Positions 32,226 through 33,744 of a DNA stretch of 61,544 bases are shown here, piece by piece. The DNA comes from an uncultured Clostridia bacterium (GTDB lineage Bacteria > Bacillota > Clostridia > Christensenellales > UBA1242), in contig CALVPQ010000006.1 in assembly GCA_944351415.1 (NCBI GenBank), positions 1-61,544 of the forward strand. The letters run 5' to 3'. The notes beneath the pieces are model-generated. The model saw only the letters and a program-made list of their open reading frames with translations. It ran no database searches and was not told the DNA's origin. Each line of letters begins with the position of its first letter. The first letter of the stretch is position 1. The position numbers were made by a program, and so were the translations under genes.

Positions 32226-32453
32226 TTAAACATTCCTATATAAAGCATTTGTAAGAACTATTCCACCATCTATAGCAGCTGAAATAATTAACCATATCGT
32301 TGCAATTAATACTAAGATATAAATAATTCTTTCAATTATCTTATGCCCCATACTTATCCATGCCACTAAGTTGAAATTAAAAAGTCCAACAAGCCCCCAA
32401 TTAAGTCCACCTAGTAGCAAAATAATGAAAGCTATATAATTTGCTATAATCAT
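32226..32453 (-). CDS. DUF378 family membrane protein
   Basis: A 75-residue protein with two hydrophobic segments (about 4-30 and 41-62). The family motif G-G-L-N-W-G-L-V-G-L-F-N-F-N-L-V fills residues 15-30. DUF378 proteins are small membrane proteins of unknown function. GGAGGT lies before the ATG (plus-strand CACCTCC is seen at 32459-32465 as part of TACCTCCTAC). It is monocistronic with its own terminator. Confidence 0.9.
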   Translation of the reverse strand: MIIANYIAFIILLLGGLNWGLVGLFNFNLVAWISMGHKIIERIIYILVLIATIWLIISAAIDGGIVLTNALYRNV

Positions 32454-32530
32454 TTTTTACCTCCTACTCTTATGTTGGCTTTTTTTATGAATTTTATACT
32501 TGTTAATAAAAACTCATTTGATAAATTTTG

Positions 32531-32642
32531 ATAATGAGGGCTGCAAAAAACTTTTAGCATTTTGCTAAAAGTAGAAAAAAAAAGCGAAGCTTTTTTGTGC
32601 AAACTCTTGTTAAAGAGTTTGTTTTTGCAGCCCCGCCATTAT
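32531..32642. repeat. cloverleaf-shaped inverted-repeat element
   Basis: An outer stem is formed by 32531-32536 with 32637-32642 (6 bp), a 1x3 internal loop, and 32538-32549 with 32622-32633 (12 bp). Inside are three perfect hairpins: 32551-32559/32563-32571 (9 bp), 32578-32585/32589-32596 (8 bp, GAA loop) and 32600-32608/32613-32621 (9 bp). Only a few bases separate them, so the whole folds as a four-way junction on either strand. It lies between DUF378 and mnmA. There is no coding capacity. Confidence 0.75.
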
Positions 32643-32649
32643 AATAAAT

Positions 32650-33744
32650 CTAACTTATTTTATTTCCATCTTTATCAAAGCTTTCATCAATTGTTCCGCC
32701 ACCTAGACAAATACCATCTTCGGTATATAGAACAACATATTGACCAGGAGTTATTGCTCGTTGACTTTCAGCAAAATCAACTCTAATATGGTCTTTATCT
32801 AAAATTTTAACTCTAACCTTTTGGTCAGGTTGACGATACCTAAATTTAGCAAAGCAATCAAATTCATCTTCTGCTGGAATTTCTGGTATCCAGTTCATAC
32901 CACTCGCAAGTAGATAGTCACTATAAAGCAATTTATCCTCGCCTTGAGAAACATAAAGGATATTTTTTTCTAAATCCTTTTTTATAACAAACCATCGTTC
33001 CCCATTTCCATCTTTTTTACCGCCAATATTAAGACCACGTCTTTGCCCTAAAGTGTAATACATAAGACCATCATGTTTTCCAACAACATTTCCATGCAGG
33101 TCTACTATATCCCCAGGTTTTGCAGGCAAATATTCTTGTAAAAATTTTTTGAAGTTTCGCTCTCCAATAAAACAAATTCCTGTGCTATCCTTTTTATCAG
33201 CATTAACTAGAGACAATTTATGTGCAATTTCTCTTACTTTAGGTTTATCAATATCTTCAAGTGGAAAGATAACACTTGCAAGTTGGTCTTGCCTTAATTG
33301 ATTTAAAAAATATGACTGGTCTTTATTTAAGTCTGATGCTTTTGCTAGATAAAATTTCCCATCTTTTTCAATCTTTTTTGCATAGTGACCTGTTGCAATC
33401 ATTTCAGCCCCAAGCTTTTTTGCTTGTTCAAGAAAGGGTCCAAACTTAACTTCTCTGTTACACAGAACATCAGGATTAGGTGTTCTTCCTTTTTTATACT
33501 CACTAAGAAAATATTCAAAAACTCTTGTATAATACTCTTTTGAGTAGTTAACAGAAAAATATGGAATCCCTATTTTATTACAAACTCTTTTAACATCTTC
33601 AAAATCTTCCTCGGCTGTGCAAGCTCCATCTTTTTCTTCCCAATTAACCATAAAAAGGCCTATAACATCATGCCCCTGTTCTTTTAAAAGATACGCTGCA
33701 ACTGAAGAGTCAACTCCTCCACTTATTCCAACAACAATTCTCAT
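32650..33744 (-). CDS. mnmA: tRNA-specific 2-thiouridylase MnmA
   Basis: Inserts sulfur at C2 of the wobble uridine in tRNA-Lys, -Glu and -Gln. The 364 residues start [14 protein letters not shown] (PP-loop). They contain N-P-D-V-L-C-N (first catalytic Cys), [21 protein letters not shown] (second catalytic Cys) and Y-T-L-G-Q-R-R-G. It overlaps the TM2 gene by 4 nt (ATGA), a coupled arrangement. The usual cysteine desulfurase partner is not adjacent. Confidence 0.97.

Follow-up and report, generated by a model that had tools for sequence, protein, structure and literature searches.

An intergenic block in the window (the whole 61,544-nt stretch of DNA analysed here, from an uncultured Clostridia bacterium) is one copy of a family of cloverleaf-shaped elements that are alike in shape and share little sequence. 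The family has a tight geometry and, on most 5' outer arms, a purine-rich junction step; its copies are placed almost at random in intergenic sequence, they recur at orthologous sites in the nearest relative, with paired base changes, and some of them have been duplicated as units. We give about an even chance to the reading that the block is a copy of a dispersed, intergenic, strand-symmetric DNA element which is defined by its shape, which has spread partly as short units and whose stems are renewed by template switching. Such an element would be a sequence of about 94 nt whose two strands can each adopt a compact four-way junction with a 12-bp outer stem and three hairpins of some 9 bp each.

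A family recognised by its shape

The window element folds strongly on both strands, with -49.7 kcal/mol (z -7.1) on the + strand, folded over positions 32520-32655, and -49.4 kcal/mol (z -8.8) on the - strand. None of 200 shuffles folded as well on either strand and no three-branched candidate appeared in five shuffled host scans (see below), which rules out a chance structure. Folding thus bears out two claims of the original prediction, namely an outer stem of 12+6 bp interrupted by a 1x3 internal loop and the ability of either strand to fold; of its three hairpins of 9, 8 and 9 bp, the last two stand, and the first has 10 bp instead (Table 1). The placement that it gave, between a DUF378 gene and mnmA, is supported by Pfam matches to both genes, which lie on the - strand. 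Counted from its 12-bp stem, the element stands 16 nt off the end of the mnmA ORF, and 84 nt separate it from the start of the DUF378 ORF.

Table 1. Parts of the window element and its flanking genes (positions in the window)
Feature	Position	Strand	Description
DUF378 gene	32226..32453	-	Pfam PF04070
Distal outer stem, 5' arm	32531..32536		6 bp, outside the 1x3 internal loop
Outer (proximal) stem, 5' arm	32538..32549		12 bp in the scan; 11 in the minimum-energy fold
Hairpin 1	32550..32572		10 bp, loop of 3 nt
Hairpin 2	32578..32596		8 bp, loop of 3 nt; AAAAAAGC-GAA-GCTTTTTT
Hairpin 3	32600..32621		9 bp, loop of 4 nt; 10 bp in the minimum-energy fold
Outer (proximal) stem, 3' arm	32622..32633		pairs with 32538-32549, 12 perfect pairs in the scan
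Distal outer stem, 3' arm	32637..32642		pairs with 32531-32536
mnmA	32650..33744	-	Pfam PF03054, PF20259, PF20258 (tRNA_Me_trans domains expected of MnmA)

The closest other match to the window element in the host genome (1.2 Mb, 43 contigs) is 18 nt long. A scan for a perfect outer stem of at least 8 bp closing a well-paired, branched interior nevertheless turned up 22 cloverleaves with three branches in the 461,544 nt of the host that it covered (38% of the genome), against none in each of five dinucleotide shuffles; when any number of branches was allowed, there were 27 candidates against 1, 0, 0, 1 and 3. This sequence consisted of the window and 20 further host stretches (the first 20 kb of contigs C1-C5 and C7-C21), which were taken blind to hits and account for 21 of the 22 cloverleaves. 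The earliest scan, in which overlapping loci were counted, had given 27 candidates against 6 in one shuffle.

Extended from the host (G000) to G055, which is its nearest relative, and to 11 more species of their genus, the scan gave 79 elements in 1.22 Mb in all. Part of this set was chosen by hits or by synteny with host copies, namely 36 kb from the host, 100 kb out of the 500 kb taken from G055, and several loci from other genomes. With an interior at least 70% paired, 78 of the 79 branched candidates in this set were three-branched and one was two-branched; at a looser 60% pairing, 86 were three-, 22 two-, 6 four- and 1 six-branched. The remaining 400 kb of G055 contained 21 copies. Among the well-paired candidates of the species G032 and G060, 21 were three-branched and 4 of 25 two-branched, locus overlaps being counted; the 9 and 12 clean copies of these genomes correspond to 7 and 10 distinct ones (L044/L376 and L045/L364 overlap). 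Weak sequence matches in other species of the genus (L009, L010) sit in the same architecture with different stems.

A plain MAFFT alignment left the hairpins unaligned, and the covariance models were therefore made in two steps, the first (R1) on a pair of close copies and the second (R2) on structural matches. In the host, R2 matched 13 distinct places, 12 of them at E <=1.4e-5. In the whole-genome searches it scored a limited number of first-pass candidates and missed true copies (e.g. G000:C9:6763), so that genome tallies are lower bounds. Such a search of host and relatives was the check that the original prediction had proposed, and it returned multiple copies with compensatory changes; the block is thus a dispersed structured repeat, one of the identities suggested for it, with its layout repeated in host and relatives and compensatory changes between copies. 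Uniqueness had been named as an argument against any element, and the window block is unique by sequence only, since the model and the scan reveal dozens of copies by shape. The other two arguments named, a lack of conservation in relatives and arms changing without compensation, do not hold, given the layout found in relatives and the compensatory changes seen there. Bacterial repeat families are usually found by sequence, and a family brought out by a structural scan suggests that sequenced genomes may conceal more of them.

In related species, the structural scan also found several cloverleaves at the 3' end of mnmA. Among 70 mnmA loci with enough downstream sequence (72 were fetched), 7 had a clean cloverleaf within 150 nt of the gene and the other 63, including close relatives such as L039, had none within that distance.

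Geometry and sequence of the copies

The 79 elements are about 94 nt long (quartiles 90-99 nt), with an outer stem of 12-13 bp (quartiles) and hairpin medians of 9, 9 and 9 bp. Loops measure 3-4 nt in 204 of 237 cases, and the joints between stems are mostly 0-1 nt. A distal stem of at least 5 bp is present in 21 of 93 distinct elements, compared with 6.1% in swapped-flank controls. Stem sequences are unlike between most copies, and subfamilies with shared stems exist. Conserved terminal inverted repeats would be expected of a MITE; in the cloverleaves the outer stem is perfect, as the scan requires, but it differs in sequence from copy to copy, with a GAAA-like step found repeatedly at its inner side. 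Purines predominate where the 5' outer arm meets the junction: GAA occurs within its last 7 nt in 55 of the 79 elements and TTC in none. Because the outer stem is palindromic, this step reads alike on both strands. The window copy, whose 5' outer arm ends in CAAAAA, is among the 24 without GAA. The word pair AAAGC..GCTTT is found in 22 of the 79 members, and hairpin 2 of the window copy has one.

Conservation of pairing between copies

Fifteen elements, each read on both strands, were aligned by structure, the alignment being fitted to the model. Paired cells make up 97.8% of it (50.8% after shuffling), and it scores 0.996 for covariation (0.181 after shuffling). Double changes occur at all 36 pairs, but shuffles also give them at 31.3 on average.

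Orthologous copies allow a finer comparison. G055 is the closest of the 112 genus genomes searched, with 90% identity to the host over one gene. Fourteen ortholog pairs were aligned, 13 between host and G055 and one between G032 and G060, both members having passed the scanner, which favours pairing. Of their 539 alignable base pairs, 461 are unchanged and 34 have changed on both sides to another Watson-Crick pair; 28 have changed on one side (21 breaks and 7 changes to G-U), and 16 double changes have left no pairing. Pairing is thus not absolute, in view of these single breaks, single G-U changes and non-pairing doubles. By comparison, 103 of the 190 positions outside stems show no change (loops were summed by hand).

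For 14 of the 26 host elements, an orthologous region of G055 was compared, and all 14 regions hold a clean cloverleaf, a few long-span matches being orthologous at the level of the region only. In the reverse direction, 15 of 19 were clean. Three of the four others comprise one that is intact with a wholly different first hairpin, one that lacks the first hairpin and one that has decayed; the fourth (L179:5226) is a weak candidate. Because the scanner demands a perfect outer stem and a well-paired interior, near-perfect pairing has partly been selected for by the scan; decayed copies exist. The shape tends to survive changes of letters, and something may depend on the fold itself.

DNA or RNA

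A structured RNA within transcripts, such as a 3' UTR stabiliser, a processing site or a bidirectional terminator, would be suited by the strong fold of both strands, by the compensatory changes and by the start of the window copy 16 nt past the mnmA ORF. At least one copy of G055, with a promoter-like sequence on one side and a start codon on the other, would suit this reading too and could act as RNA. The mismatches within stems lean the other way. Against 3,247 Watson-Crick pairs, there are 7 GT, 12 AC and 4 other 1x1 mismatches, and on the transcript strand of 45 codirectional elements there are 8 GT and 6 AC, so that G-U is scarcely favoured over A-C. The scanner accounts in part for the rarity of mismatches. 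It does not account for their strand symmetry, which is seen in small numbers, however.

The elements are placed among genes almost as if they had been inserted at random between them, and this extends to divergent gaps: 13 of 77 elements fall in such gaps, which make up 19% of intergenic bases (in this count, 8 placements overlap an ORF by more than 30 nt), and when only BLAST-supported genes are considered the figures are 9 of 64 and 16%. A terminator- or promoter-like placement was considered and shows no clear bias, divergent gaps being not clearly depleted as they should be for transcript-borne RNAs. Searches of Rfam with the window at the gathering score and with 16 element loci at E <=0.1 gave no match on any element. 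A terminator needs a single hairpin, which three hairpins on an outer stem exceed. Few mismatches without a clear G-U preference, together with the near-random context, favour DNA over RNA; the evidence leans this way without settling the matter, the argument resting on 14 to 23 mismatches. A structured RNA, which the original prediction had also suggested, thus finds no support here in mismatches, context or Rfam, and we regard it as rather unlikely.

Spread and distribution

Some copies have been duplicated as units. G055 has near-identical copies with flanks in common, and G032 and G060 have a unit of about 136 nt, made of the cloverleaf and a second hairpin, which is found in tandem and dispersed, with decayed members too, and whose number differs between the two genomes. 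The second hairpin of this unit (L364:11790-11941, L373:16367-16646, L382) occurs in swapped variants, CTTGCTTGCAAG and ACAACTTTAGTTGT.

Multiple copies, sequence subfamilies, tandem units, the difference in unit number and a patchy distribution would also be expected of an ordinary non-autonomous transposon (of the MITE or REPIN type, or made by a reverse transcriptase) whose enzyme is rare, lost or unrecognised. The searches for such an enzyme gave a mixed picture. A Y1 transposase (PF01797) had no match in the host and was matched in 15 of 61 genomes of the order, a search that did not extend to G055. No reverse transcriptase (PF00078) was found in the host; among 20 chosen genomes it was present in 6, namely 5 of 10 that bear cloverleaves (G055, G060, G071, G095, G252) and 1 of 10 others (G043). 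Both enzymes were rejected as movers in the host, where they are absent; as several cloverleaf-bearing relatives have a reverse transcriptase, an origin by that enzyme is excluded for the host genome at most. This tally leaves our weighting unchanged, because the host and four further cloverleaf-bearing genomes have no reverse transcriptase.

The GTAG tetranucleotide is the REP motif, and RYYYAAC and GTTRRRY form the integron attC core. GTAG or CTAC lies near the ends of 7 of 93 elements, compared with 2 of 93 in windows 40 nt outward, and the attC core pair is found in none of the 93. Direct repeats of 4, 5 and 6 nt flank 9, 4 and 1 of 93 elements, against 6.8, 1.9 and 0.9% with swapped flanks, and thus give no clear excess that would indicate target-site duplication. 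We found no protein that binds the element or moves it. A transposon is further opposed by the window element having no sequence copy in the host, by the retention of all three internal hairpins and by the cloverleaf kept in every one of the 14 regions compared with the nearest relative. The suggestion of a non-autonomous foldback element keeps some ground, as some copies have spread as units, and loses some to the lack of a clear target duplication and of both enzymes in the host; overall, we consider an ordinary transposon improbable.

The density of cloverleaves ranges from about 1 per 19 kb (400-kb samples each of G000 and G055) to about 1 per 50 kb (G032 and G060, where some stretches were chosen by hits). 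The R2 model matches at least 8 of 101 genus genomes and at least 2 of 197 family genomes, the host being counted in both. In 19 genomes taken as other genera of the family (G112-G130; genus label direct for 8 and inferred for the others), 337 kb gave one match, formed with a tRNA. Within genus g18, G252, which was chosen for its model hit, has three in 20 kb and G128 none in its 20 kb. The distribution is patchy.

Carriage by phages was considered and rejected: 21 viral contigs matched one outer-stem pattern, and the only loose scan match, L231:554-679, is 126 nt long, lies on a G+C-rich viral contig and was judged atypical. As a control, 80 of at least 120 further contigs matching a second outer-stem pattern, and thus chosen for inverted repeats, gave 2 clean matches in 695,731 nt.

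Origin and maintenance of the stems

A few single cases hint at the way in which stems originate. In the host, the left outer arm and the 5' arm of the first hairpin of L155:18721-18814 lie inside the coding 3' end of a PSP1-domain gene (PF04468; presumably RicT-like), and the right outer arm is the inverted complement of the arm in the coding end. The same arrangement is found at the end of the PSP1-domain gene in G055. Among 17 PSP1 loci read (30 were fetched; 103 of 112 genomes matched), the element is present at the gene end in 2 and absent from 15. At three loci, L031, L082 and L060 (a two-branched match), the T arm of a tRNA serves as the outer arm; the tRNA was called by program in L060 and L082 and recognised by eye in L031. 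These cases may instead belong to separate tRNA-linked elements. Inversions also occur. The loop TTTTC of L044 is GAAAA in L045, an exact inversion between the close species G060 and G032, and in the orthologs L142:6097 and L156:8952 (G000 and G055) the interior is inverted relative to the flanks, as judged by eye. Such inversions are few, with one exact loop among 24 matched hairpins and one interior among 14 ortholog pairs, and loop inversion as a general rule was rejected on this count.

One proposal is that perfect stems are both made and kept perfect by template switching (PMC8794818), and another that the process makes arms alike and turns spacers round (PMC8604942), in the accessible parts of these two papers. 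At each cloverleaf site, template switching between arms during replication would renew the stems, which would account for stems that are perfect and unrelated, for changes in both arms, for the inverted interior and for the inverted loop. It is very improbable that template switching accounts for everything, the cloverleaves being purely mutational palindromes made and kept by this process without function or mobility: stems made and kept perfect, inverted spacers and homogenised arms are, on the accessible evidence, within its reach (PMC8794818, PMC8604942), as are arms common to host genes and the one inverted loop and one inverted interior, but it gives no reason for there being three hairpins of a fixed size, or for GAA being found in 55 of the 79 5' outer arms and TTC in not one, nor does it fit loops that are less conserved than stems or the single, tRNA-formed match in 337 kb of the 19 other-genus genomes.

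In the shape-defined DNA element that we favour, copies would occasionally spread as short units, and selection would keep the four-way-junction fold, either through a putative DNA-binding protein that reads the shape of the junction or because the extruded fold itself would matter for the chromosome. More tentatively, and on the doubtful side, the cloverleaves might represent a class of elements whose heritable identity is shape: a four-way junction (12 + 9 + 9 + 9 bp) in dozens of copies, selected for its fold, with a sequence that is almost free and is remade by template switching, and with a dedicated junction-binding protein as its reader. The family offers many natural replicates for separating selection on the fold from template-switch correction as causes of perfect stems, and the element is a defined DNA four-way-junction substrate with which a candidate reader protein could be fished out.

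Comparison with known elements

In the pneumococcal BOX element, boxA and boxC can pair as an outer stem around boxB modules, the sequence being conserved and the number of boxB modules variable. The cloverleaf outer stem likewise encloses internal modules; unlike BOX, cloverleaves have nearly always three hairpins and a free sequence. The mobile-looking double-hairpin elements of mitochondria are also kept by structure more than by sequence. They are organellar, have two hairpins and are not known to have the outer stem that closes a four-way junction in cloverleaves. An outer stem with internal hairpins, that is, a branched DNA fold, is also formed by AAV-type terminal hairpins and Streptomyces telomeres, and inverted (flip/flop) forms occur at AAV ends; these folds are the ends of replicons, whereas cloverleaves are dispersed internal copies.

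Another comparison is with the REPINs and BIMEs (REP doublets). In the accessible part of the paper by Bertels and Rainey (2011, PMC3116915), these are short and dispersed in extragenic space, with inverted repeats whose predicted hairpins would form in mRNA or in single-stranded DNA. Cloverleaves share with REPINs, as described there, their small size, their dispersal in extragenic space and their inverted repeats. REPINs are defined by an over-represented REP sequence and linked to RAYT transposases (PMC3116915, same part). Cloverleaves, by contrast, have little sequence in common, their host gave no match to a Y1 transposase, and their three hairpins stand on an outer stem. Bacterial stem-loop repeats comprise 92 families, mostly intergenic and most with a common predicted secondary structure, according to the accessible text of their survey (PMC2267715). 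Cloverleaves are likewise repeated, intergenic and alike in structure; those families were found by clustering similar sequences and by HMMs, as far as that text describes (PMC2267715), whereas a search by sequence brought up no second copy of the window element in the host. Titles and opening lines of abstracts described no dispersed, sequence-free element with three hairpins; this silence is no proof of novelty, since most subscription papers fell outside the search. We place the cloverleaves among the dispersed palindromic repeats, as a variant of these, and see a real chance that they are more than that.

Other sequences near the elements

Three tRNA genes, L148:199-275 (tRNA-Met, - strand), L060:4732-4819 (tRNA-Ser) and L374:6249-6334 (tRNA-Leu, - strand), are followed downstream by a 14-17 nt complement of their T arm, together with a CCC..AAA..TTT..GGG hairpin and a direct repeat of the tRNA 3' end (by eye). 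A T-arm complement of at least 10 nt is found in 6 of 82 tRNA contexts and in none of 410 shuffles. The arrangement resembles a small element in its own right that has inserted at the 3' ends of tRNAs.

In G055, a repeated promoter-like sequence, TTGAC..TATACT, whose spacer contains some 8 G in a row (a broken row in L170), was seen by eye at L170:13200-13500, L157:900-960 and L181:12410-12500, and cloverleaves adjoin such sequences; these G-run sequences may be phase-variable. The one in L170 lies upstream of an ORF that begins MSFKIKLISTVSAF and has no Pfam match. Other short repeats of the same genome (L171:6160-6300, L181:12800, L170:18830; CACTCTTCACTTTTCACT type and CCGGACAnnCGnC type) form a mosaic around cloverleaves where the intergenic sequence is long. 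A SAM riboswitch (RF00162; L007:527-614, - strand) lies 80 nt from the cloverleaf copy L007:694-792.
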